Shown here one piece after another: positions 4,216-45,903 of a stretch of DNA of 64,000 bases (position 1 is its first letter; the number at the start of each line of letters is the position of its first letter). The stretch lies in assembly GCA_029204225.1 (NCBI GenBank), contig CM055095.1, positions 43,427,184-43,491,183 of the forward strand, written 5' to 3'. The stretch comes from Diphasiastrum complanatum. Its lineage: Eukaryota; Streptophyta; Lycopodiopsida; Lycopodiales; Lycopodiaceae. The translations under genes were made by a program, and so were the position numbers. The notes below the pieces were generated by a model. It saw nothing but the letters and a program-made list of their open reading frames with translations, had not been told where the DNA came from and ran no database searches.

Positions 4216-4299
4216 GAAGTTAAGAAGAAAGCTTAGATTATTATCATTTATGTTGATGAGCAATTCAGTGAAAGAATCATGAATGCGAAGCAAGCGATG

Positions 4300-4443
4300 C
4301 AATGCAATTCGGATGGAGTTCGGATCTGATCGCTGGTCACTGCTAGCTGAATCGTTCCTACAGTCCTCCAGAATGTAGTCAAACACTGTTGATCTACGTT
4401 TAGAAATTAATGTAGCATTCAACAAGATTATACCAGGGTGCGG
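4300..4443 (-). repeat. Copia LTR fragment, reverse orientation
   Basis: Read on the minus strand, this matches the last part of the LTRs at 34531-35395 and 38359-39225. Shared blocks include AATCTTGTTGAATGCT, CTACATTCTGGAGGA and ATCCGAACTCCATCCGAATT, with scattered differences. It is a truncated relic of the same or a sister Copia family, joined to the SINE on its left. Confidence 0.65.
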
Positions 4444-5940
4444 AATTTAGTAGACACTTATGGAAGACCCTCCTTGCCATAAAAGGAGAGGTATTTGCAT
4501 TGTAACCAACACTTTTGAGATTAAGCTATCTTGCTCTCTATTTTGGAGAATTATCATTCTATGTCATTTGTGTTCCCTTTGGAAAGGTGCATAGCTTGAG
4601 GGAAGGTGCTCGGGCCTCCTCTTGCCTCCTTTTCATTGGTTTATTGTGGCATGTTCTTTATTGCTTATTTATTTAATATTAGCCGCAATATCATTTTATT
4701 ACCCTTTGAGTGTTAAGTAGAATTTACATTAATCACCTTGCTAGTTGGATAAGCCTTAGCAAGGGTTTGTATATTGTCACCTTAGATAGTTTCATTTTCG
4801 TTTTGAGCACTAGTTGGGTAAGCCTTAGTGCTTCCGTCATTACTTCTTATTTTCTCAATTCTGTTTGAAACTTGGTAGAAACTTAAAAAGTGGACAAACC
4901 TCTACATCCCTATACTACACCCGTAAGTAGATCTAGCCACCGCACACACTAGAAATACTTTCAACATTGGCGTCGTTGCCACTTTTTAAGTATTTTTTAC
5001 CTAGCTTCTTCTCCTTTTTCTTTTGTTTTTGCTTCCGTGTTGTATGTTTGCTTGTGTGCTTGTCTCTATCTACCAACAAACAGCACGCGTTGTCTCTCCA
5101 GGTCTTACACGAGCTACGGAGCAACTTCTCAAACCGGAGGGAAGCAACAAAAGAGTCAACTTGGGCATTTTCTTCGAAAGAAGTGACCCAAGTGACCTTT
5201 TTCACAACCAAAAAGGTATATCAGAATTTGCCAACCTGTCTGCAGCCCTAACAGACCCTGATCTTTCATTTTATCATATCCGCAAATTTTGACCACAGTC
5301 AAGTTTTGACAAAACAGCCTGATATATTGTCAAAATCTCTTATTTCTCACCCAAATCCTTGTCCTAGAATTCTTCGGCTTCACTGAGGCTAGATCTCATC
5401 AAGATCAGTCCTCCAGTAGCTCCGCGAATTCTATCTCACAGATTTTGCCCGTTTACTATTAGAAAATCACATTTTTTTCCATATTTCCTATCTGCCAGTC
5501 AAAATTCTCTATTAGAATTTGCCATCCAGCCTAAGAATTTGTTCTCAAAAAGCACAATTTTGTTGTCCTACCCTCGAATTTTGAAACTGCAATTTTTTCT
5601 CATAAAATCTAAAAAAATCACTATTCTGACATTCAAAAATCTTTTCAGAATTCGTGAGTCTTACAATTAGCTTTATCTGTCTCTCCACAATTTGTCAGCC
5701 TGTCTGCGAATTCTATCACCACCAGAAAGACCAGGTTTTGTCCTACACTATCCATTCTGCAAGCAAACTGCCCTTTTTGCCAAGTACAGTCCTACCCTGC
5801 TCATCTATATTCTACATCATGTCTCGTGACTATGCTAAATCTTCTAATCCGACTCCTCCATTAATGGTGCTAGTTGTGTTGTCATTCATAAACAAAGATC
5901 AAGAGATGATTTTGGATCTTAGTGATTAACAAAATCTTCA
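4444..5940 (+). other. Possible LTR and leader sequence, no gene
   Basis: No coding region is recognised. TTGGCGTCGTTGCCA at 4967-4981 resembles the plant Gypsy primer-binding site TTGGCGCCGTTGCC, and the preceding AT-rich stretch could be part of an LTR. A repeated phrase (GGATAAGCCTTAG near 4747 and GGGTAAGCCTTAG near 4814) suggests internal duplication. The assignment is weak. Confidence 0.25.
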
Positions 5941-10765: not shown

Positions 10766-10810
10766 CATTAGAGAAAATATGGGCCCCAAAGAGGGCCCTA
10801 TAAGAAATGC
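10766..10810 (+). repeat. E1 left terminal inverted repeat
   Basis: It starts CATTAGAGAAAATAT, then GGGCCCCAAAGAGGGCCC and AAGAAATGC. It pairs with 19634-19678 at roughly three quarters of positions, and shares its CATTAG start and CCCAAA..GGGCCC core with both ends of E2. Confidence 0.8.
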
Positions 10811-10970
10811 TATGTAGGATAGAGAAAAATAACTATAAAGTAGTTATAGTATCATTTTCTAACTTCTTTATGCATCTGCCCGCACTCCTTTCCATGTAAA
10901 TGAATGCACCTTAGTTTAGTCACATCAAACTTCACTGGTGCTTAGCCAAAGTTAGAATATAATTTTCAAA

Positions 10971-13960
10971 ATGATGAGATATTCCCTCCCAAAAGTTGGA
11001 AACACTCAAAAATTTGAATTAGGAGTGATCTCTGAAACAAAGTCTACGCCATCTCTATCTCCAGGGTCAAACAAGTGTTTAGCACCATCACTATCTCTAG
11101 CAGAGTTAGCGCCATCTCCAACTTTGTTATTGTCATTGTGTTGTTTGTTACTATACTATTGTATTGATGACAAAGCTTTATCATCTTCATGTGGTTTCAA
11201 TCACCAGAATATGCTCCGCTCAAGACAAGAAATTTAAAGCAACCCAAATTGACAACTTCTAATATGGTCCGATACAGAGAGGAAAAGCTAAAGCATGTAG
11301 ATTTATGGTCATCGGGAACATTGTATCCTATTGATCCATGTTCATTGCAACATCCGGATCTTCATTCAGTGAGTCAGTTAATAATCTATATGTGTCATGG
11401 GAAAAATGGTCTTTTGGGTTACTGTGAGAATTTGATGCTCTATGGGAATGCACATTCAATGCAAAGAATACATTATTTGGAAAAGAAATCAAGGAAAATA
11501 TCAAAGGAGTGCGAAGAAAAATCTACAAAGTTGAAAACTTGTTTGGATGAAAATGAGATGCTCAAGAAGGAGATCGCAAGGTTGAAATCTTCTTTGCATA
11601 TGAGATAAAAACTGCATTTCAATCCATGCGTATCTCATATTTGTCTCTTGTTAAAGATATGGATGTGCTCAACAGAAAGGTCCAAAGCAACAAGAGAAAA
11701 AGACTGTAACCAAGGATATATGTGATCTATTATCCAAAGGAGGTCATAGAAAAAGACAAATCCGTGCATTTAAGTAGGTTATAGCTTATTTGGTATTAAA
11801 TATTGCTTGAACTTTTTGATTCATCTATAATCTCTTGTTTTATTATTTATTCATTTCAACTTTCTATTGATTTTCTTATTATACTGCTGTGAATACTATG
11901 AGTGTCAAAATTTCTACTGACATTTTCATGAACATTATGTTTGCAATGCGGATCAGCATTTGTTGTTGAAGACCATTTGGCTGATGAGATTTTGATTGGA
12001 AACTCACTAGGCTCTATCTTGACTTCTAAATCTATGAAATCAATGTTAAACAATAACAAAATGAAAAAGATTAAGGCTTTAGTTATTGATAGCATTATGA
12101 ATGAAGTTGAAAAAATATTAGACACAACATTGCTTCAAGGGGCATGTGACTTTTCTAGCATTAGTAGAGAAGCATATGCAACAATGTTTAAGATGATAAA
12201 GGAGGCATTTGCACATGTAAGTATTAAAAAGTTTCTAATCCCACGACCATTTCATCTTTTAAGAAAAAAAGACATGTTAAACCAAGGTATGCAAACAATA
12301 GTTGGTAATCCATCTCATATCAATGAAGTGTATTGCTCAAAAGGAGAAAGTCTAGCATATAACAATTCCAATAATTTATTTATTGACATTAATCAGTTAC
12401 TAACATTCATCATAAATTTTTACGGTATTACAAATGAGAATGTCAATAACAAGTTGATAGTTGTTCTCAAGTTAGATGAGTCTGAAATCATAAAAAGACA
12501 AAAAATAGAAAGAGTCAATCTCACGATAATAAATGGAGCACTTTCAAATTCAGAAGACTTAGAAGGCCTCAATTTCAGGGTTCAATCAGAAAATGATATC
12601 TCGTGGTTGGCAGCATTTCAGGTATAGCAGTTCCTATCAATAGGGATAATCATTTTAATATGGATTTCATTTGGAAAATCTTCTCTTTGTTAATATTATG
12701 AGGCTAATCATGTTTTTGTATTCTCTTATAGGTGATGAAAGAAGACCATGACATTCTCTCGTGGATATTTAATAGAACATCATATCATGCCACCATAAAA
12801 AATCACATGGAGGGAGTTCCACTCAATATTCCTGGAATTGGCACTTTCAACATTGAATGGCATTTAACAGGAGATGTGAAGATATTAAAATATATGTTCA
12901 ATATATCACATGGCACTAACTCTAAACACCCTTGTCTGTACTGCATGAAGACAGCAAAAGACATGACAAGGAGTACAGGAATATAAAGAGATCGAGAAGA
13001 TCCTAATTGGAAACATGTACTACTGATTCCTCTTCAAAATGTTCATATCTGTACATTGCATGCGAAGGTGCGTATTATAGAAAAATAATCTATTTTCACA
13101 TCTTGTTTGCATGGAATTTCGAGTCAGAGGCCTCTGCGAAGGAAGCTATTTCTAGATTAGAGGATGTGTTGTCCAAAGAAGGCTTACATAAAGGCCACAT
13201 TAAAATTAAAAAAAAATGACAAGCTATCAGGTAAAACAAGAAATATTCCATGCAAGCTGAGCATTGGAGGACCTAAAGCTCGAATATTTTTATCAAATTA
13301 TTCTGGCAAACAATCCAAGATTCAATACACAATTTGGAAAGAAAATATTGCAACAACTCAAGATTTCGAAGAAGAAGGTTCTACTCGTATACACAAAGTA
13401 GAAGTTTCAAAAAAATTAGACAACATGGTGAAATACTTGAGAAAAGATAAATTTTCAAATACTGATGTACAAACGATACAGAAAACAACCAGTGAATTTG
13501 TGGATGTAGTTCAAAGTGCATGGGGTTTAGATCATATAACACATTATATGGTAAAATTTCGATGTTACACTACTATAGACAAATATGTGCAATTAAATTA
13601 GATACTTTTGGTACTGATTTAGACTATGTTTTTATGACATGCAACACATATTACGACATCATTCGACATTCTTTGCAAAAAATAGTGAAAGTCTTAGCAT
13701 TTGGTCATCGCAAGGAATGGAAAAATCTCATTGAGCAAGAGCGGCATTTCATAAAAGTACACAACATGGCGGGACTAGCACAAAAAACAGTTATATACTA
13801 CAACTTTTTCAATGATTTTATAGAAGAATCCAAATTCATCATAATACAAAATCGACGGATTATAAAAAATTTCAAAAAGCATGCAAATTTATACAAGCCA
13901 ATAGGCAATCGACACACAATAAAATTTTGTATATTAGATAAAAATATTTACAAATTATAA
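10971..13960 (+). pseudogene. E1 gene 1: candidate DDE transposase with HxCLYC insertion
   Basis: The N-terminal part (11189-11608) ends in a Lys/Glu coiled coil (KKSRKISKECEEKSTKLK). The main exon runs to 12621, then a GT-AG intron (12622-12731), then coding resumes in frame. Motifs in order: LKLDESE (about 12466), WHLTGDVK (about 12858), SKHPCLYCMK (about 12922), LHAKVRIIEK (about 13048). Two Asp motifs, a zinc-type CxxC insertion and a later Glu in a helix is the layout of RNase H-fold transposases, so I infer the element's transposase; this is a pattern match, not a family identification. Damage: TAA near 12985, frameshifts at A-runs near 13085 and 13210, and another near 13550. Its stop lies 14 bases from the stop of the convergent gene 2. 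Confidence 0.55.
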
Positions 13961-13974
13961 TTGAACAGTATCCA

Positions 13975-15287
13975 CTATGCTTTCGATACTTTCTCTAGTG
14001 AAAGTTGCAACTTAGAATCATGCAACAATTTGCTTCTTTCGTATGGATCCAACAACTCATAGTTTTCATGCTTACTCAGATCAACGTAAGCAGCATACAA
14101 TACAAAATGAGATGATCTGAACATGAAATTCACTGGTCCATATATTAAAATTTTAACCGCAATGGTTTTCTTTACAAAAATAATTTTATGCACCTTATTA
14201 AAATTATGTCCTCCAATAAAATGAGACAGTGCCTTGATTGTCATAATCATAGTCTCACCATGTTGATGAAATTTTGAATGGACAACACTTATCTCATTAT
14301 TTTTGAAGAACTTCAGATAGTGTCTCAATGCATGATCTCTTGAAAATTCTCAAGCAGAAGATCTTTGTCCTCCTCGACGAATTGTGAAATCATCAAGGAA
14401 AATTGTTTTCTGAAATGGGAAAAAAATAAAAATAAAGTAAGCTTTAGTATAGTCTGACATAATGAATCTACTAGTACATGATAAAATACAAAAACTTACG
14501 CATTCAGCTTTGTCTTCCCTGATTACTGTCTCTCCATCAATATTATGTCCACCTTTCTATGTCAATATTGTTGGTGAATAGACATTTGGTTGTGGAAAAC
14601 CAAGTTGACTTTGGATTCTGAAAAACTCCTCCTCAAAAGATAGATCACCTTCTTTGTTGCACGTTTCCTCCACAGCCATTTTCAAGCAATCTTTCCTTGA
14701 ATAAAACTTATCATTATGTACATCGTCAATACCAGAGAGAAGATCATCAGTATCAAAATCAATTATATCCAAAAATTCATCAAGCTCTTTGTTCAAAATG
14801 CAAAGATTCTCAACTTTAGTGAAATAAAAAAGATCCGATATATTTGATATTATCAAAAAAGAATTATTATCTATATTATAAGTAGGCAAAGTGATCAAAG
14901 ATGTATCAGAAGGAGAAAGGATAGTGGGTGTTTTAGGGCCTATAAATGATGTCCTATTTCGAGCAGGATCAAAATCTGAACAATCATCTAAATTAATGCT
15001 TGTATCAATAAAAAAAAGTATGTATATCTACAATGTTTGACTTTTTAAACTTTGTACCATTGGAAGAAGCATTTTCAGAAGTGGAAGTCCCAGCTTCCGA
15101 ATCGTCAGAAATATTTAACAAAAGAAAAAACAAATGCAGACCGAAAATCAACAAATCTACATTTTTTATTGTGAATTGGACACTCGTCTACAGACTTGAA
15201 ATCATTATGTAACTTGGTGAATATTCTGTCAAGCTTAGTTTTATAGCTATGCTTGTCGAGTGCCACCAAATCTTGATAATGAATCAT
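13975..15287 (-). pseudogene. E1 gene 2: unknown ~370 aa protein
   Basis: Read leftward: a start near 15287 (MIHYQDLVALDKHSYK), a frame change at a T-run near 15120, then a long acidic stretch with SDDSEAGTSTSENASS and DIIDFDTDDLLSGIDDV. A GT-AG intron at 14499-14410 joins DKAEC to KTIFLDDFTIRRGGQ in frame. The last exon is compact and basic-hydrophobic, with DHALRHYLKFFKNNEISVVH and GETMIMTIKALSHF. Two in-frame stops (near 14557 and 14350) disable it. I do not recognise the family. The last exon resembles a folded domain and the first half looks disordered. Its 5' end faces gene 3 across a palindromic spacer. Confidence 0.5.
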
Positions 15288-15337
15288 ATCCTTTTATTCT
15301 GAGATCTGAATAACGGAGTATTGAACAGAGACTTAAA

Positions 15338-15481
15338 TCTGAGATATATCTCAGAAAATGTCTCCACACCAAGAATAACAACGGTATCGGTATCGATACC
15401 AGAACTGAATATCGGTTTCTTTTATGAAAATAATTTGTGTATATCTTGCGCTCAAAACCGATATTCAATTCTGGTATCGAT
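15338..15481. promoter_or_regulatory. Divergent spacer with paired inverted repeats
   Basis: Between the divergent starts of genes 2 and 3 there is a perfect 18-base palindrome, TCTGAGATATATCTCAGA (15338-15355). There is also a 27-base inverted repeat: 15392-15418 (ATCGATACCAGAACTGAATA then TCGGTTT) against 15455-15481 with one mismatch and a 36-base spacer. A symmetrical binding site between divergent genes suggests a shared promoter or operator for an element-encoded protein, but this is inference from position and symmetry only. Confidence 0.55.
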
Positions 15482-15572
15482 CTCAAACGCTCTCTGATCG
15501 CAATCTTTTTTTGTTTTCATTCCATGCGCTTTTGTTCAAAGTTTATTTTTTTGATTTTTTTTTTTGAGAATG

Positions 15573-17496
15573 ATGGCCAGGACCAAATCCACTGCCCGTG
15601 CCATAACCACTGTACAGCCATCCCATGCCCGTGTTTTTCCTGGTACTGGCCGTAGACGTGGCAAGAAGCAGGTTTGGATGAGGGAGATTAGAAAACTCCA
15701 GAACTGAACTATTGATCCCTATAGCTCCTTTCAGTCGATCTATCATAAATGTCACTCTGTCACTTGGGCTAAATTTTTGTTCTGTCATGACAGCCATGCA
15801 AGCCTTACAAGGTGCTGCAGAGGATTTTTTGTCCCAATTTCTTGAGGATACCTATCTTTTGGTAGTACATGGTAAGCATGTCACCATCATGCCAAAAGAT
15901 TTCATCATTCTCAGAAGACTTCGGGACCGTTTTTCTGGTCTGCATGTTGATAACGCCAGCACCTCCAGAGACCTGCTCTGGATAGAACCAACTTGCCGAC
16001 TACCTCTAGCTGGAAAAGGAAGCAACCTATTCCCAAGAAAGCTCTAGAGTTATCCTGGCCAAGAGACCCCGGATCGCCTTGAGCTCTGAGTCAGATGCTG
16101 GAGAATCTGATTCAGATCGAGAATCGTCACCCCTTCCTTCTCCTGTTATTCGTTTAGCTCCTTAGCATGTTTCTTCACCAAAAGTGTTGATTACCCAAGA
16201 GGAGCTCAACAAAATAACAAAAAATTCTGTAAATATTGTATCTACTCTTCTTTTTTCTCCTGTACATAATCTTTTTGTTAGAATTCCATATGATCCTGCC
16301 CAAGTTTATTTTGATTCTGAACATTATAACCAGTACGAGGCCTTCCTAGGTAATAAAATTGATCTTCTCAGCAATTTTTTTGATTTTTTTTTTCCAAATT
16401 TATGTAAAAGCTTTAGATTAGGTCCCAAATTTTGTGTCGAGCTGAAAGATAAAACATCAGAACTTTCAAAATATAATAGTAGAAGCCGAAGGATTTTTTT
16501 TGCAGAATAGTATTAGTTTCGATTCTCATGGTATAGTTTTTGTTCTTAGTCCATTTTTCATGGAGGCAATAAAGGCAAAAGAAGCCGATTTTGAGAAGGC
16601 TGTATATTATATCGAATGCAGTCCTGTGGCAAAATTTTATTTGATTCCATATGAAAATAAGTAAGGATTGCTCTTTTGTTTTTGTTGTTTTAATATGGAT
16701 TGTTGCATGTGGCATTGCTTTAATAAGTACGGATTGCTTTAATAAGTTTGGATTTATCGATATTTGTATTTTGGTTGTTGCAGTCGGCATTGGAGCTTGA
16801 ACATTATATTAGTAAAGATAAATAAGGAGGGAGTATCAAATTTCTATGTATAAAATTAAACTCAGCTGCAAATACACATAGAGAATTTGATTCTCTACTT
16901 TATAATGTCGTTCAGAAAATACCGACAACGGCAACCTCAATTGGAGAGATAACCATAGATCTCTCAAGGTATATTCAATTTATCTTTGATATACATGTAT
17001 TCTTTTTTAGTTCAAATCTATCATCATAGCATAAATAAATTTTCTATCATAATATTACTAATTTTCGTTCAATATATGTAGTGTGTATAGCAAAAGAACT
17101 CTTTTAGTTGTGCATGGTTCGTCCTGTACAATATGAAGTTATTTTTTGAGTGGTATACTTTACAAGTGGATGTAGATATTGAAAAGGTAATATTCTATTC
17201 ATTTGTAGATCCTTTCATTCTAATTCATATTTCTTTACTATCATTGTTTGTAATTTGCTGATTCTCGTGTTTTGTGATGACATTTCACTCTTGAGTCGTA
17301 TACTCCTGACGATGTATATAGATTTCGACAAGAGTTGATCAAAACCTATGCTCAGAACGGTGTAAGCGTTGCACCTAAGATCGAGGGCCCTAAAAAACAA
17401 GCTACTCCTGCCTTAATAGCCTTTCAGATTGTTCAGGATGTAGATCTTATTATATATGATAAAAAAGGAATAGAAGTCCTTCCTAATACAGAGTAA
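15573..17496 (+). pseudogene. E1 gene 3: histone H3-like fold plus acidic linker and unknown C-terminus
   Basis: From the ATG at 15573 (another ATG lies 3 bases upstream) the protein starts MARTKSTARA, as histone H3 does, and reaches VWMREIRKLQ at the H3 alphaN helix. After a small frame-changing deletion near 15700 it continues TELLIPIAPFSR, ALQGAAEDFLSQFLEDT, HVTIMPKDF and RRLRDRF (to 15933), covering the whole histone fold. A second frameshift near 16040 leads to AKRPR and an acidic SESDAGESDSDRESS tract, a TAG near 16165, then an unrecognised domain (16184-16660). GT-AG introns lie at 16661-16783, 16969-17081 and 17187-17295; the last exon ends at 17496. Loop 1 length equals canonical H3, while LLIPIAPF recalls centromeric H3. 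No fusion of this kind is known to me. Confidence 0.7.
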
Positions 17497-17832
17497 GACG
17501 ATATTATAGTAGAGAGTCCTCTTGTCTTAAAAGGCATAGAGGCTCTTCCCGAAATAGAGACAAGATTATAGAAGGAGCTATTCCCTTATCAGTTCCTAAT
17601 ACTAATAAAGAAAGTATAGAAAAATTGACTAAATAGAGATCTATTTGTAAATAGAGATACATCAAAAAAAAAAAAAAAAGATACATGTAAACAACCCGTT
17701 TATGAATTTTTTTTTATTGATATCAATATAGATTCTAACAATCAGGTTGTGTCCATAGTGTAATACTGGAATGCAATTTTCTATATTGATAAAAAGACAT
17801 GATGATTGGCATGTATTTGCTGATAGTGAATC
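17497..17832. other. Convergent 3' spacer of E1 genes 3 and 4
   Basis: About 340 AT-rich bases between two facing stop codons, with an A-run near 17667-17681 and TTTTTTTT near 17708. This is likely the 3' UTRs and poly(A) signals of both genes. Nothing else is seen. Confidence 0.4.
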
Positions 17833-19199
17833 TTAGTGATCTTCCATAAGTTGGATTGTTTCGCCAATATCTCTGCATTTGATCTCGAGCTCATGTCCTT
17901 TACGTACCTACATAAAACTAATACAAAGTGAGTTACAATTAGTACAAAGATTGTATTAGAAAGTTTTGATTGAAACTATTCATAAAGGATCAAGTGTTTA
18001 CAGTTACTTACGAGTTTACCATTGAAAATGAATCTGAAGTCTGAAAGTACATCATCTTGTAGGAGCAATAGTTCCCACCTGATGTAATTTAGACTCCAAT
18101 TTTCTTCCACCTCAACACACGTCGAAACGGCATCATTGTATATAGTTTTAATGTTTTTTCATTTTGAATGTCCACTGGCTTCCAAGTCTTGATCAAGTGG
18201 CACCCATTTACCTTTATTTTTTTTTCATCTTTGATAATGGAAGCATAAGCTCAACATTTGTTTTTCAATTTGATAATGGAAGCACATGAAAGACATTTTA
18301 ATTCTGCATTCTATTTCTCCATCTGATCTTTTTGTCCCAACCTTCATCCATAAGTTCAGATAATAAACTATTTGATAAATTTTTGCATACAAACATCGTT
18401 AAGGTTTTGTGTACATTGACACTTGAAAAGAAATCCACAAATATATTCAAGGAAATAAACCAACTCAATCTGACTGTTTTTTATTTTGTGCTCATTTTTA
18501 ATGAATTTTTTACATCATTATATATCTTGCAATGAAATGATTCTGAAACTGTAGCATCTGGTGCAATCCATTCATCACTTTCAAAACTAGGTAATGGAAT
18601 TTGGACTATTTGTCCAAAATTTTCTTTTGTATCAAGAATGTACATTGATTCGTAAAAAAAAATCTCACTATCAACTAGATTTTTTGCAGTTCTACCTCGA
18701 TATTGCAGTTGTCCAATATCAGTGTGAATAACATCTAGCACATCTGCTAAAGATCCATTGGGCTCCCATTCATTTATGTTGGATGGATATAAATCTACAA
18801 GAGAAAAATGATCAGATTGGCAAGTTTACTATTAGATATTAATGAATGACAAAAATCTAACTATCAAAAATATCAATACTCACAATTGTTTTTTTTGTGA
18901 TCTTGACGGTTGAATCCTTGCACATTTATCTCTGAATGCATATGTACATGTTGGACTAGAATTTCAAAAATAGATTTTCCTCTTGATGATGTTCTGAAAT
19001 CCAAAATTCTGGCCTTCCAATAAGATCGAAATGATAGTTTTGATCTTTTGCTTTTTCGAAATGCTCCTCTTGATGATGGATGCATCAAAACCCAAGAGTT
19101 TTTTGAATATTTTCTTGGCACCCATAATCCATTATCATCTTTCTCGTTGAATAGAAGCATAGAGTCGATTGAGGAGCACGACTTCCTTGATGGCACCAT
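17833..19199 (-). pseudogene. E1 gene 4: unknown multi-exon protein, homologous copy in E2
   Basis: Exon 1 (19199-18884) reads MVPSRKSCSSIDSM and a basic SKRSKLSFRSYWKARILDF. A GT-AG intron (18883-18795) leads to exon 2, with YPSNINEWEPNGSLADVLDV, GQLQYRGRTAKN and IPLPSFESDEW. A further intron likely starts at 18513 and ends near 18422; exon 3 has TMFVCKNLSNSLLSELMDEG. After a decayed stretch with paired Cys residues (KCLSCAS) and CHLIKTW, the end reads RWELLLLQDDVLSDF, an intron (18011-17908), and KGHELEIKCRDIGE before TAA at 17835-17833. E2 carries matching pieces (IPLPDFSSEEW, TMFICKDLSDEIIAELLDDG, SHLIK), so the protein is shared by the element family. Function unknown; the Cys pairs might bind zinc. 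Confidence 0.5.
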
Positions 19200-19204
19200 T
19201 CGTA

Positions 19205-19320
19205 ATGTGCATGCAAAAATCTAAAACACTGAACTATGAATCTGAAAATTTGCGTAGACAAAAAGCCATGAATCTGAAAAAATGTGTTGGCATAAATTTG
19301 AAACACTGATCTGTTTGGCG
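19205..19320. repeat. E1 right subterminal short repeats
   Basis: Short direct repeats recur: ATGAATCTGAAAA twice (about 19234 and 19268) and AAACACTGAWCT twice (about 19222 and 19303). Subterminal clusters of short repeats are typical transposase-binding regions in large plant DNA transposons; the role here is inferred. Confidence 0.4.
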
Positions 19321-19633
19321 CCACAAATTAACTCTGGTTAACCATGTTAACCATGATTTGACAATGCATATACATTAATGGTACATCGATTTTCTCATCT
19401 CAACCATCTGTCATATTCATTTTCAATATTTTTGGGTCTCTTCGGGTAGTGATGAGCTGGAAGGGCAGGCCTCATCAACCAATAGCATTTCCACATGTTG
19501 CCCGACGAAATAGCAATATATTTTAATAGTTTTTATTTTATTTATATTTGGAAAATTCTACGTTACGTAGAACCCCGATTTCAAGGTTTCAATTGGTCCA
19601 CATGGCAACGAAATAAGAAAAATAAAAAATAAA

Positions 19634-19678
19634 GCATCTTTTTCAAAGGCCCTCTTTGGGCTCTAAGTTTCTCTAATG
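19634..19678 (-). repeat. E1 right terminal inverted repeat
   Basis: Read on the minus strand from 19678: CATTAGAGAAACTTAGAGCC, then CAAAGAGGGCC and AAAAAGATGC. It pairs with the left repeat at 10766-10810 and is close to the E2 ends. Confidence 0.8.
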
Positions 19679-20487: not shown

Positions 20488-20817
20488 TGGTTACGTAATG
20501 GATTTTTGGTGACTATTCTGCCCATTTCTGAACAGATTAAAAAGCAGAATAGTCACCTGTTTTTTTAAAAAAAAAAAATTAGTGCAGATTATGCCTGCCA
20601 TCTACCACGTGGCAGCATTGGATTGGTCTCAAATTTTTTTAGTGCTGATTCTGCTTGCACCTGCCACGTGGCAATTAAGGATTGAATTAAAAAGGGGTCC
20701 AAAAATCCATTACGCAATGGAAGGGGCCGGGCAGAGGCCATTCTGCCCGGTACGGGCCTCGCCTAAAAAAATTCTTGAAAACCATGAGGGCAGAATGGCC
20801 TCTGCCCGGCTCCTTCC
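20488..20817. mobile_element. Foldback/MITE-like element with three inverted repeats
   Basis: Outer arms CGTAATGGATTTTTGG (about 20493) and its complement CCAAAAATCCATTACG (about 20699) enclose an inner perfect inverted repeat, GGTGACTATTCTGC against GCAGAATAGTCACC (about 20508 and 20545). Next to it, 20719-20748 and 20788-20817 form a 30-base inverted repeat with one mismatch and a 39-base loop (CCGGGCAGAGGCCATTCTGC). Two CCACGTGGCA motifs lie between. This is a short non-coding foldback element, possibly two joined. Confidence 0.6.
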
Positions 20818-20995
20818 ATAATACATCATATTTATAATGAAAGTCAGATCTACTCACAATTAAAATCGTTATCGGCTTTTTGAATAACTTTATCACTTTT
20901 TCAATATTCTCACAAACTTCAAGGTGATATACAACATCAAGGTAAACCAAACATTTGAATTAGATGCATGGTGACAAGAGTACTTTTTCAATGAC

Positions 20996-34389: not shown

Positions 34390-34530
34390 TCCAAATTGCC
34401 AAATTAGACAACTTAGCTAGTTGAATTAGACCTCCCTTACAATCTTGAACTTGACAAAGATATCATACACCTCATCCTTGCTCTTTAGTAGATACACCCA
34501 ACAAATATACTAAAATCATCAATAAAATAC
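34390..34530 (-). pseudogene. Copia integrase fragment (right of a nested insertion, reverse strand)
   Basis: Read leftward from 34530, with a small frame shift: FIDDFSIY and YLLKSKDEVYDIFVKFK, the Copia integrase core after its first catalytic Asp region ('FIDDFSR.TWVYFLKSKDEVF'). Its missing N-terminal half lies at 39484-39226, on the far side of the inserted Copia element at 34531-39225. Confidence 0.7.
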
Positions 34531-35395
34531 TGAAGAAACAAAGTGTTTCTATCACCAAAGCTCTGGTAGCTCTCGACTCCCAACCTGACAAATATCTCGA
34601 AGACCTTGAAAACGAAGACCTTGAAGACGAAATGTTCACGAACAACATGAACAACAGGAGAAGGTCGAATGACATGAAACGAAAATGTTTGAGACACCTG
34701 AAGGTCGAATACTTTCGACATCTCAACTCGAAAGGACCCAGAAGATCAAAGCAGTACCGTAAAGTACAAATCCCTGCTATGATATGATGACATCCGCAGA
34801 AGAGTATTAGGACGTGTCTAATCCGTCGCTCTTGTAATATGTGATTAGTCGTAGATTGTTTAATCTATCTAATCAAGATATTACTTTGAATATATGCAAT
34901 TGCTAGATGCATCAAAATATACACACACATATAGACAAAAAAAATATAGAATAGAGAAGTCCGCCAGTGAGTGAGATAATTGTAAGTAGGATCCACAGAG
35001 ATCCAAGTAGTCCGCTAGTAAGCGAGACATTGTTCGTGGGAGAACATCGCTTCTCTCATGCCAATGCACTATGGGGATCTGTCACACAGTGGTTAAAACC
35101 AAGAGAATCAATAGATGATGTTGTAGCCGTTATGCACATATCATTCTAAATTGTCTGATCTCGATTGAATTATTGTCTACTTATTGTTCCTGTGTCTCAT
35201 TCGCTTTGTTTTATCTATTCCGCACATAGGTTCAATCTTGTTGAATGCTGAATTAACTTAATGTAGGTCAGTAGTGTGTGTCTACATTCTAGAGGATTGT
35301 AGGAATGATATAGCAGGCAGTGACCAACAATCATATCCGAACTCCATCCGAATTCATTTGTAATTCGTTCGTTTTGGCTTCTTTGTTTCGCTTCA
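34531..35395 (+). repeat. 5' LTR of nested Copia
   Basis: TG...CA ends. It aligns with 38359-39225 over its full length with substitutions and few indels, suggesting an insertion of some age. Its 3' part also matches the reversed fragment at 4300-4443. Confidence 0.9.
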
Positions 35396-35396
35396 G

Positions 35397-35408
35397 TGGT
35401 ATCAGAGC
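35397..35408 (+). promoter_or_regulatory. Primer-binding site of nested Copia
   Basis: TGGTATCAGAGC, complementary to initiator tRNA-Met, begins two bases after the LTR end (35395). Confidence 0.85.
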
Positions 35409-35525
35409 GTCACCATGACAGGCTCATATCCGAGACCTGATATAACTCAAGAGCTATCAGATCCAAGAGACAAGCATTTAGAACAAGAAACAAGAAAGAA
35501 CAGCTGAAGAACACAATCTACAACA

Positions 35526-35930
35526 ATGGCTTCAATAAGTAGTATACAATCAACGATCTATACAATCCCCGACTCAACTGGGTCGAACTTCCTAGCATGG
35601 AAGATAAAGACCTCTCTCATATTGAAGGGAGAAGGGCTATGGCCCTGGGTAGACAACACCGAGAAGATTCCTACAAGTATAGGCAAAGAGCTACGTGAAT
35701 GGAGAGTGAAGAACGACAAGGCAGTAGCCATGTTGTCATCATCCATCAAGGATAGCTTGACGCTTGACCTCACGACACTCTCTAATGCAAGAGAGATGTG
35801 GGGTACATTGCTTACCAGATTTCAGACGAAATCATGCAGCCACATCATGTTTCTTGAAGATCAGCTGACAAATTTGCGATGGGATGGCAGAGACCATGCA
35901 TTCGACAAGTTCACAGAATATGTGAACTAG
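35526..35930 (+). pseudogene. Copia Gag N-terminal part
   Basis: The 134-codon ORF shows the Copia Gag start: IPDSTGSNFLAWKIKTSLIL, a Trp-rich LWPWV, ALREMWGTL-like NAREMWGTLLTRFQTKS, LEDQLTNLRWD and FDKFTEYVN, then TAG. In full-length relatives Gag is about twice as long and ends in a zinc knuckle, absent here. Confidence 0.75.
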
Positions 35931-35939
35931 GCAGAGAGA

Positions 35940-36760
35940 TGCACATGAAATAAGGTGAAGCAGATCCGAATAGATTGGGGTGGAGAATACATCTCAAACC
36001 GATTTACTGATTTCTACAATGACCGATGAATCATTCATAGAAGGACAACATCCTATACAATGCAGCACAATGGTATTGCAGAAAGAAAGAAAAAGACTCT
36101 CATGGAAGCCGCTAGGTGCATGATGGCCGATTCAAAGGCTCCAAGAGTGATGTGGGCTGAAATAGTAGCTACAGCTGCCTTAATTCAGAACAAGACATGA
36201 AAATCTGGTGTTCCTCACACAACACCACAAAAACTATGGTGGGGTAGAAAACCCAATCTGACTCATATTTGAATCTTTGGTTGTGCAGCATATGCACATG
36301 TTCCTGACAAGCTTCAAAAGAAGCTTGATGAGAAAGCAGAACAAGGATATCTTGTAGGATATGACAATCATTCATCATACTACAAAATCTATATGCCAAA
36401 GACAAACATAGTGAAGACAGTCAGAGACGTCAAGTTCAATGAGACAAGAACAATGGCCAACAATGATCCTGTCAATTATGAAGTTCTTGGAAGACAATAT
36501 TATGATCTACCAACCGCGATAGAGGGAGCATGGGACGAACACTTAGACAAAGATGTTCAAGTCGCACCTCAATCAAGCAACGAATTAGACGAAGAAAGAC
36601 TCGCAAGCCTGCCTACTGCTACTACACCTATAAACTGAAATGGTTCTGGACCTAGCATAACAGATAAAGGCAAGAGCATTGCAGTACCAGAAGGATCTCC
36701 CAGAAGATCAACAAGAGCGAAGAGCGCCAACAAGATTTGTGCCAGATAGCTCAACTTCTA
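35940..36760 (+). pseudogene. Copia integrase C-terminal half
   Basis: Directly after the Gag stop the frame reads KVKQIRIDWGGEYIS (second catalytic Asp) and QHNGIAERKKKTLMEAAR (catalytic Glu), then FGCAAYAHVPDKLQKKLDE and GYLVGYDNHSSYYKIY. The integrase zinc-binding domain and first Asp are missing, so Gag is joined to mid-integrase by an internal deletion of roughly 1 kb or more. Several in-frame stops are present. Confidence 0.75.
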
Positions 36761-37300
36761 CATCTGAAGAGTTTTGTGGATTTGGTGGAGAACCACAAAC
36801 ATTTGAAGAAGCAATTGATTGTCCAGAGAAGGATCTAAGCCATGAATGAAAAAATCGAATCCATGAAAAAGAATGAGGTCTGGACACTGCAACCAATGCC
36901 TAAGAAATGAAAAACAGTGCAATGCAAATGAGTTTACAAACTCAAGTATGAACCGAATGGAGATGTTTCGAGATACAAGGCCAGACGTAGCGAAGGTTTT
37001 TTCTCAGAAGTACGACATCACCTACACTGAGACCTTTTCTCCAGTGGTGAAACATGCTTCCTTACGCCTACTATTTGTATATGCAGCTGCATACGACCTC
37101 AAGATTCACATTGTTGATTAGAAGACAACATTCCTACATGGCAAATTAGACAAAGAAGTCTACATAGATCAACCTCCAAGTTATACCTCCGAATCACTTC
37201 CTACATATGCATGCCGAATGCACAGGAGTATCTATGGTCTGAAGAAACCAGCACGACAATGGTATAAGCAGAAATATTAAGCCCTAAAATCCTTAGGATT
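36760..37300 (+). pseudogene. Copia RT first half, frame-broken
   Basis: In shifting frames: EPQTFEEAIDCPEKD, YDITYTETFSPVVKHASLRL, LFVYAAAYDLKIHIVD, then YIDQPPSYTS and SIYGLKKPARQWYKQ. These are successive Copia RT blocks, interrupted by several stops. Confidence 0.75.
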
Positions 37301-37307
37301 TGAGCCA

Positions 37308-38340
37308 TTGATAGCCGATTCCAATGTTTATGTGAGAATCACAGATGGGAAGATCATCATTGTTGATGTGTATGTGGATGACACCCTAATACTATGCAGA
37401 AGCGAAGGCCTGATTGTAGGAGTGAAGAATGAGATCTCAAAACATTTTGAGATTACAGACCTAGGAGAAGCCAGATGTTATCTTGGCTTACAGAGTGACA
37501 AAGACTATGACGAAGGGAAATTGTACCTTCATCAGTCCAAATATACCCAAAAAATGCTAGAAGATTTTGGGATGATGAATTACAAAGGAGCAGATACTCC
37601 AATGCTTGGAGGAACAATCCTGACGAATGAAAATTGTTCGAAGACTGAAGAGGAAAGAGAATTGATGCAACATACACCATACAGGAAGCTAATCGGATCA
37701 CTAATGTATCTTGCAAATTACACATGCCCTAACATTGCTTATGCCGTGTTCAAGATGAGTCAATTCAGTACGAATCCAGGCTCGACTCATTGGAAGATCG
37801 TGAAGCAAATCTTGCAGTTCCTTCAACTAATGAAGGATTTTGAATTGTGTTATTCTCATGATGTAGGATTCCAGATGCTTTCATACAGTGATGCTAGCTG
37901 AGCATCTCTCAAGGATGATTGCAAAAGTGTCTCAGGAGGATGTACCATCGCATCAAGAGCAACAATTCTCTGGGTCAGCAAAAAGTAAACCACCGTATCT
38001 CAGTCATCCTATGAAGCAAAATACGTAGCAGCAACGAAGATGGCCAATGAAATCACTTGGCTCAAATAGTTCCTTGACGAACTAAGTGAAACGAGGAATG
38101 AGCCTCTGATTTTGTAGATGGACAATACATCCACAATACACCTAATGAACGTTCCTGTGTTTCACTCAAGGACGTAACACATTGCAATCAAGTACCACTT
38201 GATAAGGGATCTGATAAAAAAGAAGAAGCTGCAGACTACTTTCATTGGAACGAAGAAGATGGTTGCTGACATCTTCACAAAGGCCTTAGACAAAGGTTTG
38301 TTCGAGAAACAGAGGAGCAGCCTTGGAGTCATAAAGCTAC
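37308..38340 (+). pseudogene. Copia RT second half and RNase H
   Basis: A 198-codon stretch keeps the catalytic IIVDVYVDDTLILC, EITDLGEARCYLGLQ, LHQSKYTQKMLEDFGM, YRKLIGSLMYLANYT and the RNase H start MLSYSDAS. After TGA the RNase H continues (SSYEAKYVAATKMANEI, KMVADIFTKALDKGLFE) with further stops, up to the purine tract before the 3' LTR. Confidence 0.85.
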
Positions 38341-38358
38341 CACGCTTTGAGAGGGAGC

Positions 38359-39225
38359 TGAAGAAACAAAGTGTTTCTATCACCAAAGCTCTGCTATCTC
38401 TCGATTTCCAACCTGACGAATATCTCGAAGACCTCAAAAACAAAGACCTCGAAGATGAAATGTTCGCGAACAACACGAACAATAGGAGAAGGTCGAACAA
38501 CATGAAACGAAAATGTTCGAGACACCCGAAGGTCGAATACTTTCGACATCTCAACTCGAAAGGATCGAGAAGATCAAAGAAGTACCGTAAAGTAAAAATC
38601 CCTGATATGATATGATGACGTCAGCAGAAGAGCTGTAGGATGTGCCTAATCCGCTGTTCTTGTAATCTATGATTAGTCTTAGATTGTTTAATCTATCTAA
38701 TCAAGATATTACTCTGAATATATGCAATTGCTAGATACATCAAAATATACACAGACACAGCTAGACAAAAAAAATACAGAACATAGAAGTCCGCCCGTGA
38801 GTGAGATAATTGTAAGCAGGATCAACAGAGATCCAAGTAGTCCGCTAGTAAGCGAGACATTGTTCGTGGGAGAACATGGCTTCTCTCATGCCAATGCGCT
38901 GTGTGGGTCTATCACACAGTGCTTAAAACCAAGAGGATCAATAGATGATGTTGTAGCCGTTATGCACATATCATTCTAAATTGTCTGGTCTCGATTGAAT
39001 TATTGTCTGCTTATTGTTCGTGTATCTCATTCGCTTTGTTTTATCTATTCCGCACATAGGTTCAATCTTGTTGAATGATGAATTAACTTAACGTAGGTTA
39101 GCAGTGTTTATCTACATTCTGGAGGATTGTAAAAATGATATAGCAGGCTGTGACCAGCAATCATATCCAAACTCCATCCAAATTCATTTGCGATTTGTTC
39201 GTTTTCGCTTCTTCGGTTCGCTTCA
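38359..39225 (+). repeat. 3' LTR of nested Copia
   Basis: Partner of 34531-35395; starts TGAAGAAACA after AGAGGGAGC and ends CGCTTCA. Confidence 0.9.
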
Positions 39226-39484: not shown

Positions 39485-39528
39485 CATTAGGGGATATTAG
39501 AACTCAAAATGGACCCTTTATCAAGATG
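39485..39528 (+). repeat. E2 left terminal inverted repeat
   Basis: Starts CATTAGGGGATATTAGAACT, then CAAAATGGACCCTTT and AAGATG. Pairs with 43728-43771. Confidence 0.8.
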
Positions 39529-39810
39529 TTTTTCTTGACTTCGCACGCTTTCAACGCTAATGTGTCCCAATTAATGGTGTCCATCTGTGACGAACTGTGA
39601 CAGTGGTTGACGGACGGAAATTGTTTTTGCCTTGCTCGGCCAAATTTTTGTGATTTTCAAAAATCCCGCCTGGCAGAACAAACGATTGTGATTGGACCAC
39701 AATTACTGCCCGAATAATCTTTTGCTGCATTCCTTTGTACACTCGAGGTTGATTTGACGTCAATAGTCGTAAACTATAGTTAACTAATTGTTGTAGTTTA
39801 GGAACTTATC

Positions 39811-39950
39811 GTCATTCTTAGGTATACCTCTCATTCTCTTCGTTCTCTCTGTCATAGCTTCCATAGACATATTTTGGATTGTCATTCATAGGTATACCTC
39901 TCATTCTCTTCATTCTCTCTGTTCTCAACTTGCGTAGACATATTTTGGAC
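39811..39950. repeat. 70-base tandem duplication in E2
   Basis: GTCATTCTTAGGTATACC (39811) and GTCATTCATAGGTATACC (39881) begin two units that each continue with CTCTCATTCTCTTC and GACATATTTTGGA. The period is 70 bases. It lies between the E2 end and the gene 4 homologue, where transposase-binding repeats might be expected. Confidence 0.75.
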
Positions 39951-39954
39951 TAAT

Positions 39955-40505
39955 GGCTACACATAATCGGAGACCAAGAGGAACCATTAGAGCCGATTCC
40001 TCTACCAGATTTTTCAAGTGAGGAATGGATTTTTCCATATTCAACAATCTCATAAAGTTTTCGATCTAGACTTTATATGGGTATTCAGAGTATATTAAAA
40101 TGTAGCACTGGTTCAAAGAATAATAGATTAAGGTGGTATCTCTCTTTTTCTTATTTTGTTGATTTTTTCCAAATGCAATGTTCAGCGAACGAAAACAATG
40201 TTTATTTGTAAGGACTTGAGTGACGAAATAATCGCCGAGTTGTTGGATGATGGTTGGGATACGAAACAAAATCAACAACTTGAGTGTAGAGAGTATGTAA
40301 CTCATCAATGGCATTTGGATATCACATCAAAAAACAAATGCTCACTTTGTTGTTGTATTATAGAAGATGGAGAAAATTCAAAAATGAGTGGAAGCCACTT
40401 GATCAAGATTTTGCAATAAACCATGGAGGGGTAAGAAGAGATAAATATAAATGTCTCAATCTATCATTCGGAAAAAAAAGTATTGATTTGCACATTAAAA
40501 AATGA
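39955..40505 (+). pseudogene. E2 homologue of E1 gene 4
   Basis: Blocks in order: EPIPLPDFSSEEWIFP (about 39985-40033) matching IPLPSFESDEWIAP of E1; an intron-like gap ending at a TTCAG acceptor near 40185; TMFICKDLSDEIIAELLDDG (about 40198) matching TMFVCKNLSNSLLSELMDEG; then KNKCSLCCCIIEDGE and SHLIK, matching the Cys-containing stretch and CHLIK of E1. A stop after the first block and frame changes show decay. The upstream exon of E1 gene 4 is not visible here. Confidence 0.65.
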
Positions 40506-41072
40506 AAGCCGAGGTGGAGAAGAGAGTTGTCCAGACTGTTCAATAGATTTTGGAGAAGATTTGAGAGGAGATTTGTGAGATTTAGAAACTGATTTAGGAG
40601 ATTTGAAATGAGATTTGGAAGGAATTCTAGAAATTGATTTGGGAGGAAAATTTGATACTGATTTGGAAGGAGAATTGGAACGAAAATTGGAAGGAGATTT
40701 TGATGTTGATTTTTGAAAAGATTTGGAAGGAAATTTCTGTATCTTGGGGGGAGATATGAGAGGAGATTTTAGTGTTTTGGGGGGAGATATGGAAGGAGAT
40801 TTATGTGTCTTGGGATGAGATCTAGAAACTGATTTCTGTGAAGAGGATTTGGAAGAAGAAGACGAAGAAAAAGAGCTTGCTCCACTATCAATCCACCAAG
40901 GATCAATATCTTCATCATTAGCAATCAAACATGAAGACATCACAAGAGCATGATCATTTGAGTTTTGATCATCAACACCATCTTTATCTAGAGTTAGATT
41001 TGTTTTGCAGTTTCTCACCTTGATCTCTTTTCTTCTTGAAGCACTCACTATCAAAATGTCCTTTGACTCCAC
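40464..41072 (-). pseudogene. Retropepsin start fused to Ser/Pro/Lys-rich repeats
   Basis: Reading leftward, a 202-codon frame starts after the zinc-knuckle region, contains SSCLIANDEDIDPWWIDSGASS (about 40930-40865), then changes abruptly into about 110 residues of imperfect repeats such as SPPKTLKSPLISPPKIQKF and SKSPSNFRSNSPSKSV. At DNA level this is a purine-rich minisatellite of GATTTGGAAGGAGA-like units. The KSP/SPPK style recalls DNA-binding tails of linker histones, but a repeat expansion translated by chance is equally possible. Confidence 0.5.
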
Positions 41073-41289
41073 AATATAAGCATTTTAGCTTAGATCTATC
41101 TTTCTTTTTGCCAACAAAAGTAGAAGGCTCATCTTGATCTTGCCCTTTAGACCACTTGTCTTTGCCCTTGCCCTTAAAATTGCCTCTTGCAAACATAGCC
41201 TCCTCCTCTGCAACTTGAGAGTTCAGACATTCTATGAGTAAATGAAAAGCAAGTTTTGCAAGTTTTCTTTCACACAATCTATTACTCAT
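40984..41289 (-). pseudogene. Copia Gag C-terminal part with zinc knuckle (reverse)
   Basis: Reads MFARGNFKGKGKDKWSKGQD, then CLYCGVKGHFDSECFKKKRD (CCHC knuckle). It is close to the Gag at 32.49-32.66 kb, so the same Copia family. A frame change near 41000 leads into the protease start. It lies inside E2 and in the same orientation as the Copia integrase just left of E2, so it may be captured or displaced. Confidence 0.7.
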
Positions 41290-43727
41290 AGCTAGCTAAA
41301 CAGAATCTGCCACACAGGTTCTATTATTGACTAGACTGCCTCTGCCATGTAAAACTACACATAGAATTTAACCAATGGATTTGTGTCACCCAAGAAACTA
41401 TTCTACTGACTTAAATGTGCTATAACGATTGAGATATACAATGGAAAATGGGCATGTAGATAACTTCTGAAGTGTAAGGTTGGATTTTTCGAATAGGGTA
41501 AATGCGCTCAAAATTGAAAATGCAATTTTTAATTTGTTTTCTTCGTGCATGTGATATCAATTTCAAGCACAAATAGGGTGGTATTTGAAGCTTTCAAATA
41601 GGCAAATAGACTAAGCGATATTGCAAACTTTAAAAGATTAATATATTATTTGTGTATTCAATATTAAATGTAGGTGCAGATAGATTATTTGAAAGTATTA
41701 AAGAAGACAAATGCATTTGAAATAAAATTGCCAAAAAAGAAAAACAAGAATATTATGCTCTACTAGACATGCATACATTCAATGTCAAATGTGCAAACAC
41801 CAGAGCACGTGTCAATTTAAACTCAACGTATGTGCACAAAATTGATGTCTTTTTTTTTTTCAATGGAAAACTAAGCAAACTAAAAAAGAAAAGAATTAAA
41901 TTTCTCTGTAGAACTCAATGTAATGTGTAATTTCAATGGATTGAACAAATTTATTAGAAGTATTTGATTTCAAATCACTCCAAATAACAAAATTAAGAAA
42001 AAGACAAACTACTTTTCTATTATGAAACAAATAGAACCAGAAGCACTGTCAATAATCTATATCTATAGTTATTTAGAGCAACCAAAAAATATCCACAATA
42101 CCTCTCAACAAATAGGATAGAAATATGTTTTGATACCAAAAATGTCATATTCCTTTGTATCTACCATCATCGTCACCAAACAAGAATTATGAAATAGCAG
42201 AATAAAAACAAAAGAAGTTTGAAATACTACTTGAAGACCATGTATCTAAATATTATGCTCCAAAATTACAACACGTTAGAGATGATAATGCAATAAAAAT
42301 AGAGACATAGGTAGAAATGCTCACGTTGATTCCCACATTGAAAAATCATGTTGGCTCTCATTTACAAGAGGAAGAGAAGAGATAGAACTCCAAGTTCACT
42401 GAATTGCATTTGATCCAAAAGATCTTGAAAATTGATGTCTATTGTCTATCTATTGGCAAGGTTAATGTCTTAATTAAACTTTTTCATTTGTAAGTCCAAT
42501 AGGGCCATTGTTAAATCTAATTTAAGCTTTTTTTGGGCTTGTTATCCTTCTTTAGGGGTAACTGCCTTCATTTTTTAAGGCTAATAATTCCTATTGGGCC
42601 CAACAAAGCTTACAATGGATATTATTATTCTTTTTTGAGCACCTATGTTTAAAGAATGCATGACAAGTCTACAAAAATAATCTAACAGTTAAAACAAAAA
42701 ACTATCAAATTTGTATTGACAGATGATATTGATTCGACCCAATAATGACAATGTTGACCTTCTACATCAACCTCCATGATATTGACCCTTGTTCACCATT
42801 TTGACCTCATGACTACTTTTTGATTAGATGTTGATAGCGACTGATTCTGTGATTAGTTAGCATCTATTACAAGATTGATTAGACAATAAACATCTTGTAA
42901 TTAAAAGATTTCAATAAACTATCTTGTAACTACATTTGTATAAAGATAGATGATGAGACACACATTATCTAGAATTTTCCTGACATTTGTTTTTGTATGC
43001 ACCTTGTCGATTCTAGTTATTATGGGTGTTGTATCTAGCTCAAGAAAATGCTTTGATGATTTGCAACAACCATAGCCCTGCATGTATTTAATGCTTTCAA
43101 GTTTTTGAGTTGTGTTTGTAAATTGCTCTAGCATTCTCACATTTTTTGCTTCCACACTCTACATGATTTTGATTGTATATATCTTAAATCAAAATTCATG
43201 ATTGGTTGAAAGTTTGATGATATTAAAAATTGGAATTTTCTAGTCCTATTTTTGATAGAATCAAATTGAAGCTACAATTTTAGTGGTATAGACTATCTGA
43301 TTTGAACTCTTTGTCGATTCACTGAAAAACTAGGGAACACCTTTAGTTTATGACAACATCATCAATGGTGCCTCTTGATATTTGATTATGAGTCGCCATG
43401 TCTATGCAATAGGTCTAAACAAAGCAAGTACCAAAAGAATGAAAAGAATATGTTTAAATGGCTAGATATCCTAAACCATAAAGATTAGTTTAACTATAAT
43501 TTATAGAAAAGACCAAGAGTTTGCATATGTAAGCAATGAAAATGCATACTTGCAATAACTATGATTCAATCAAAATGTTTTCTGCTGTCTGATGAAATTT
43601 CTAAAATAACAAATTGATAGTTGAGAAAGATAAAAGTTTCCGTTCGTCAATCACAATGACAATTTTTTACAAATAGATGAAGCTTATAGGCCCTTTTGGA
43701 CATCAAAAGTGTGCGAGTTAAAACTAG
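41290..43727. other. AT-rich interior of E2, no supported gene
   Basis: Very AT-rich. A reverse-strand ORF at 42919-43155 (78 codons, with a GCC pair) is unassigned. No homologue of E1 genes 1-3 is recognised. Confidence 0.4.
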
Positions 43728-43771
43728 TATTTTTAGAAAGGGCCCATTTTGGGCTCTAATATCCCCTAATG
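43728..43771 (-). repeat. E2 right terminal inverted repeat
   Basis: Read on the minus strand from 43771: CATTAGGGGATATTAGAGCC, then CAAAATGGGCCCTTT. Near-identical to 39485-39528. Confidence 0.8.
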
Positions 43772-45570: not shown

Positions 45571-45903
45571 AAAGCTGCTCATGTTATCCAGATGTGGCAC
45601 ATTGGGAGCCAATCAGCATATAACCAGCCAATCTTCACAAACTTTGGTTAATTCTCATCAAATCAGTATGCAGCAATGCAACCCCAGTTCATGGCTGTAT
45701 GTGGAGAGAGTGAGCAGGGAAAAATGGCTTGTAGCAGCATGGAGGCAATCGCTGCTGCTGCTCTTTGATTCTTATGCAGAATCACTATCCTTGTAAGCTT
45801 CAAACCCAAATGGTGAGTCTTGAGAGATGGTAAGAAGAAGAAGGCTGATAGAAATGGAATTGGTTCTTGTAGTGTTTGATTAGAAAAGCACAGCAGATCA
45901 ATA

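Follow-up and report, generated by a model that had tools for sequence, protein, structure and literature searches.

A highly diverged histone H3-like gene within a decayed, putatively CMCT-type transposon of Diphasiastrum complanatum

The closest described systems in which a transposon carries a histone gene are fungal. A hAT element with terminal inverted repeats (TIRs) in Pyrenophora tritici-repentis carries an H3-like gene, H3L (PMC3538342), and H3 also occurs in a 9.5-kb hAT element of Pseudocercospora fijiensis and in five further fungal genomes (PMC6710886). A Helentron of the Culex mosquito contains gene fragments of H4 and of H15, the linker-histone type (PMC4067079). Here, we describe an H3-like gene within a DNA transposon, E1, of the lycopod Diphasiastrum complanatum. 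The window, that is, the whole stretch of DNA analysed, comprises 64,000 nucleotides (assembly GCA_029204225.1, contig CM055095.1, positions 43,427,184 to 43,491,183 of the forward strand), and all coordinates below count from its first letter. E1 spans 10766–19678 (8,913 bp) and has inverted-repeat ends. In the reading that we tentatively prefer, while rating it slightly short of an even chance, E1 is an old, broken cut-and-paste transposon of the CMCT type with about four genes, one of them a kept, highly diverged H3 that would probably serve as an anti-silencing histone.

The fungal elements resemble E1 in their general layout. The H3L reading frame of P. tritici-repentis likewise lies between TIRs in a DNA transposon with several open reading frames, and the P. 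fijiensis element is a TIR transposon with a captured H3 and broken copies, which its report views as gene amplification. The P. tritici-repentis element differs in being a fungal hAT with a long form of about 5.6 kb, near-identical copies and mostly intact H3L; a long C-terminal extension of the kind modelled below for E1 is not mentioned in the accessible part of the report (PMC3538342). In P. fijiensis the captured gene stems from the ordinary H3 of the host and was inactivated by repeat-induced point mutation, and the element has an 8-bp target site duplication (PMC6710886), whereas E1 holds a deeply diverged H3 and a CMCT-like transposase. The Culex Helentron also contains histone sequence; unlike E1, it is a rolling-circle element, and its fragments are 83–84% identical to the presumed parental gene (PMC4067079). 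The view of the initial annotation that H3 cargo in a DNA transposon lacked precedent thus gives way to the fungal reports. No plant case of a histone gene in a transposon was found among the papers listed by the literature searches, made in a collection that omits most subscription papers. What is new in E1 is the plant host, the CMCT-like transposase and the deep divergence of the H3; capture of H3 by TIR transposons was known already. TIR transposons with an H3 are now known from fungi, as hAT elements, and, unrelated to these, from a plant, where the transposase belongs to a family with a RAG1-like fold; such repeated capture suggests that owning an H3 may benefit a transposon.

Three-frame translation resolves the histone part of the gene into two pieces.

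15573–15701, plus strand: H3-like N-terminal tail and alpha-N helix, MARTK...REIRKLQ (translation, Pfam match, tail alignment).
15703–15924, plus strand: H3-like histone fold, in a frame different from that of the tail and open to 16044 (translation, Pfam and PDB matches).

The first frame reads MARTKSTARA...VWMREIRKLQ, and the second, from 15703, reads TELLIPIAPF...ALQGAAEDFLSQFLEDT...HVTIMPKDF...RLRD, so that the motifs quoted in the initial annotation are all present and in H3 order. Read across the break, tail and fold together match Pfam Histone (PF00125) at 61.2 bits (E 1.5e-16; profile positions 7–122 of 122), well above the curated cut-off of 26.4 bits, and the fold piece alone (15682–16044) scores 50.5 bits (E 3.2e-13). 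In a PDB sequence search with tail plus fold, the best 60 of 174 matches all carry the name H3 or CENP-A, with E values down to 4.5e-17, and the same is true of the best 60 of 176 matches to the fold piece. Because of these Pfam scores and PDB matches, we regard the H3-like gene as genuine and not a product of chance. An AlphaFold2 model of 15682–16044, made without an alignment, had a mean confidence (pLDDT) of 36.6 and was not usable. A further ATG at 15570 lies immediately 5′ of the MARTK start codon and in frame with it, which makes the mature N-terminus of the protein uncertain.

The N-terminus and the alpha-N helix are of H3 type (ARTKSTAR and REIRKLQ, compared with ARTKQTAR and REIRKYQ). 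Aligned to H3, the tail retains A1-R-T-K4 and T6-A7-R8, while K9 is replaced; 22 H3 residues are deleted, K27 among them, nine are inserted, and nothing aligns to Lys27. The fold aligns without gaps to a Quercus H3 (P0013), with 32 of 75 residues identical. Over 87 columns, identity to a panel of 11 H3 and centromeric H3 (CENH3) sequences ranges from 38 to 46%, the extremes being P0024 (0.38) and rice CENH3 (0.46); H3.1, H3.3, P0015 and CENP-A each stand at 0.45, maize CENH3 at 0.44 and Arabidopsis CENH3 at 0.41. This range of identity rules out a recent host H3 pseudogene, the near-identical copy that had been named in advance as the case that would undo the proposal.

In phylogenetic trees the H3-like protein forms a very long branch (2.44) with no supported position, and the plant CENH3s form a clade (90/93) that excludes it. 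Its loop 1 region matches canonical H3 in length, as first proposed, although the count is 31 residues after the Phe of APF through the Asp of AAED and not 32; the alignment shows a gap relative to the longer loop of plant CENH3s, which we take to be 32–33 residues. Residues reminiscent of CENH3 are nonetheless present, namely LLIP-APF, AAED and KDF. The gene may thus descend from CENH3 or from H3. Among the panel sequences, P0015, an H3-like protein of 294 residues whose tail is long and acidic, has APF, FLED and HGK in common with the E1 fold, and in one tree it groups weakly (70) with the E1 protein. Five ENA proteins of 386–438 residues (P0024, P0026, P0027, P0029 and P0030) combine an H3-type start and an H3 fold with a long insert rich in acidic residues and glycine, and exist in several diverged versions, as in a multicopy family.

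The H3-like gene seems to continue past 16100, into the following features.

16028–16162, plus strand: KRPR followed by a Ser/Asp/Glu-rich stretch, a probable linker presumably joined to the fold (translation).
16166–16660, plus strand: AT-rich open stretch, probable C-terminal extension of the H3-like gene (open frames; the frames change near 16465).
16782–17500, plus strand: possible further exons of the H3-like gene (sequence and frames); the borders at about 16660 and 16781 resemble GT-AG.

GC content by codon position is 0.556/0.578/0.333 in the linker and 0.44/0.27/0.21 in 16166–16465. A stop codon follows the linker. The open frames beyond it are AT-rich and strongly periodic by codon, and they include frame changes and borders that resemble splice sites. 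The whole, which we call G3, could be one multi-exon gene with the H3 module at its start; two genes are also possible. The H3 part forms a GC island (0.44–0.53, compared with 0.31–0.37 in the other element genes), which fits the capture of a foreign gene, and amino-acid make-up may contribute.

The island would also accord with a retrogene derived from the CENH3 or H3 of the host and inserted after E1, as would the CENH3-like residues, the near-equal identity to CENH3 and H3, and a run of 16 A at 17664–17679, some 1.7 kb downstream. Such nesting is very unlikely in our view: the AT-rich frames with splice-like borders appear to continue the gene, its divergence looks far too great for an insertion younger than E1, and the protein falls outside the plant CENH3 clade.

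E1 itself is delimited and filled as follows.

10766–10810, plus strand: left TIR (CATTAG...; score 23 against the right end; inner border approximate).
19634–19678, minus strand: right TIR (match to the left end).
11207–13957, plus strand: G1, broken multi-exon transposase gene (alignment of relatives P0001–P0012).
13978–15027, minus strand: G2, presumed element gene with no function assigned (long open pieces 13978–14349 and 14560–15027).
15392–15481, no strand assigned: 27-nt inverted repeat, 96% complementary, with a 36-nt spacer, between the divergent G2 and G3.
17840–19220, minus strand: G4, element gene with no function assigned, in several open pieces (relative encoded in a second element).

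The ends are inverted repeats (CATTAGAG...) with a local alignment score of 23, a value reached by 0 of 2000 random 60-mers from the window. The H3-like gene thus lies between TIRs, as annotated, with element genes on both sides: G1 has transposase relatives and G4 a relative in the second element. We take the open frames flanking the H3-like gene as element genes; G2 has no Pfam match above cut-off. The motif GGTATCGAT, counted on both strands, occurs three times in E1, all within 15392–15481 and two of them overlapping, where 0.04 occurrences are expected from base shuffles. This repeat is a possible shared regulatory site of G2 and G3 or a possible transposase binding site.

The transposase gene comprises an N-terminal part (11207–11599), a catalytic part (12001–12624 and 12732–13553) and a likely further exon (13496–13957). 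A protein search returned 12 relatives (P0001–P0012); the longest members possess a domain at the N-terminus as well as a long predicted helix, and the family occurs in other Logan and ENA sources as well. P0005 and its relatives contain D411, D508, C528/C531 and H586/H591, and the same motifs are found in E1 (KLDESE at about 12470, TGDVK at about 12875, CLYC at about 12934–12945 and VHICTLH at about 13040–13064); the last Glu of the motif set in P0005 is either E598 or E625. The best structural matches of the predicted fold of P0005 are RAG1 and Transib, in a model of modest confidence that is of this relative and not of the broken protein of E1. The family has no Pfam match and no sequence match to Transib or RAG1 in PDB or Pfam, the likeness being one of fold only.

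These features correspond to the CMCT clade, which, according to PMC12730594, unites EnSpm/CACTA, Mirage, Chapaev, Transib, Plavaka, ESTA, Lanisha and RAG1. E1 shares with it the D, D, C(2)C and H(3–4)H motifs, in G1 as acidic residues with C(2)C and H(4)H, the RAG1-like fold and 5′-CA..TG-3′ ends, both E1 and the second element terminating in CATTAG...CTAATG; it differs in having no Pfam or PDB sequence match and no recognised target site duplication, which in this clade is 2–5 bp long. Taken together, motifs and predicted fold indicate that the E1 transposase is of the CMCT type, in a family with a RAG1/Transib-like fold, which makes the family relevant to the broader relationships of RAG1. 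Two other assignments were rejected: EnSpm/CACTA, since the ends read CATTAG rather than CAC..GTG and no 3-bp repeat is present, and hAT, since G1 lacks a DUF659 or hAT dimerisation match and there is no 8-bp repeat. No exact target site duplication of 4–9 bp was found near either element, nor, by eye, a 2–3 bp repeat abutting their ends in the flanks; a TA or AT repeat within CATTA/TAATG would be indistinguishable from the ends, and short repeats are easily lost.

The neighbouring transposase also raises the idea that the H3-like protein is a targeting or assembly factor, whose ARTK tail or fold helps the transposase to pick targets or to build the transpososome, in the manner of RAG2. RAG2 reads H3K4me3 for RAG1, and PHD fingers read the ARTK peptide. 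The ARTK-TAR start is retained despite the loss of much of the remaining tail, and the adjoining transposase belongs to a family with a RAG1-like fold. We consider this role improbable, as no PHD domain matched among the element pieces scanned against Pfam and the upstream in-frame ATG, if used, would hide the free ARTK end. Endogenisation of a histone-bearing virus is barely credible. Some large DNA viruses carry histones; against this origin stand the inverted-repeat ends, the intron-like gaps and a transposase that belongs to a clade of transposons, and no relative of the fold, a piece of G4 or the transposase was found in IMG/VR, in a search sensitive to close relatives only.

Only one other member of the E1 family was seen in the window.

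39485–43771, plus strand: E2, second element with ends of the E1 kind and part of G4 retained (repeat search, end comparison).

The right end of E1 aligns with the right end of E2 at a score of 22 (0 of 2000 random 60-mers) and with its left end at 20 (3/2000); the left end of E1 is less similar to the E2 ends (16, 3/2000; 11, 29/2000). E2 encodes a G4 relative at 39996–40142 and 40159–40266 (E 1.2e-7 and 1.3e-8). Between the two copies, G4 has a ratio of nonsynonymous to synonymous differences per site (pN/pS) of 0.38 (bootstrap 0.26–0.55), calculated over 67 codons in two hand-chosen aligned stretches with one stop dropped and with synonymous sites saturated. A Copia-like gag fragment, read by eye from the translation, lies beside the G4 remnant of E2 on the minus strand (about 40467–41295).

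Whether the element kept its H3 in use or merely carried it was approached by neutral simulation, in which a sequence evolved to the same identity as the H3-like fold. None of 2000 neutral runs remained free of indels when one indel per ten substitutions was assumed, whereas the fold combines 57% amino-acid change with zero gaps in 75 codons. Counted by eye, tail and fold (352 nt) contain a single break or stop, and G1 contains about five in about 2 kb. Tail and fold have thus been damaged at about the density observed for the transposase gene; most of the divergence of the H3 therefore seems to predate the death of this copy, and when E1 inserted, histone part and transposase were apparently in a comparable state of preservation. 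Both lines of evidence speak against a passenger, i.e. an H3 or CENH3 gene that was transduplicated into the element and drifted there without use.

Several observations nevertheless weigh against a kept, functional histone. The frame break at about 15702 splits the tail from the fold and leaves the gene broken in E1, and E2, at 4.3 kb, has no match at E ≤ 1 to the H3-like protein, the G3 extension or the transposase. No database relative of the AT-rich extension (16166–16660) was found, and G3, modelled with its extension, is interrupted about five times within 1.3 kb, a higher density than in G1. The stop-free state of the fold is a weak test, being retained in 239 of 2000 neutral runs (earlier simulation: 32 of 300); as many hydrophobic sites were kept in 148 of 2000, and replacements were as conservative, by BLOSUM, in 117 of 300, no better than neutral for the H3-like protein. 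Only the absence of gaps clearly backs selection on the fold. The formation of nucleosomes is also doubtful, because Lys and Arg in the fold fall from 12 in H3 to six, the losses including positions that we take to contact DNA. Finally, the GC island would also suit a passenger.

A passenger is a serious possibility: neutrality is not rejected by the stop, hydrophobicity and replacement tests, E2 lacks the gene, and the fungal hAT elements provide precedents, with inactivated amplified copies in P. fijiensis (PMC3538342, PMC6710886). Between passenger and anti-silencing histone, we place the latter first as the most likely function, at roughly even odds.

As an anti-silencing histone, the gene would have a history in which an ancestor of E1 captured an H3-type gene, the element lineage preserved its reading frame as the protein diverged, and E1 inserted at its present site and then decayed as a whole. 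On element DNA the protein, paired with H4, would displace H3. Its tail, which has Lys4 and lacks Lys9 and a recognisable Lys27, would be unable to bear the marks by which plant transposons are silenced, and the effect of the acidic extension would be to loosen or to recruit. The more specific proposal, that a plant CMCT lineage owns an H3 variant with an acidic extension and no Lys9 or Lys27 and packages its DNA in an unmarkable, transposon-owned nucleosome, is rather unlikely. Accessory genes that counter silencing have been described for VANDAL transposons (VANC proteins; PMC10398659) and as transposon-borne TET/JBP (PMC12730594); the likeness lies in the proposed role alone, since these proteins are unrelated to the H3 of E1. 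If sister copies hold the frame under selection, evasion of silencing by an unmarkable histone becomes directly testable.

The remaining content of the window looks plant-like, with an ABC1-kinase domain, Copia-type and other mobile-element domains and intron-rich genes, in agreement with the annotation of a plant DNA transposon; Pfam domains in this remaining content are a Copia reverse transcriptase, an integrase zinc domain, hAT DUF659 and ABC1-kinase. Direct repeats resembling long terminal repeats (LTRs), 3.8 kb apart, surround Copia-type coding pieces at 34530–39191, and a third, inverted LTR-like piece lies about 30 kb away at 4299–4446. A hAT transposase fragment occupies 54541–55128 (DUF659, E 5e-34). 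A possible plant ABC1-kinase gene, interrupted by a long intron, comprises 50352–50660, which holds the ABC1 domain, and 45880–46635, a piece without a Pfam match that was linked to it by eye. At 20717–20819, a 32-nt inverted repeat, 97% complementary with a 39-nt spacer, resembles a miniature inverted-repeat transposable element.
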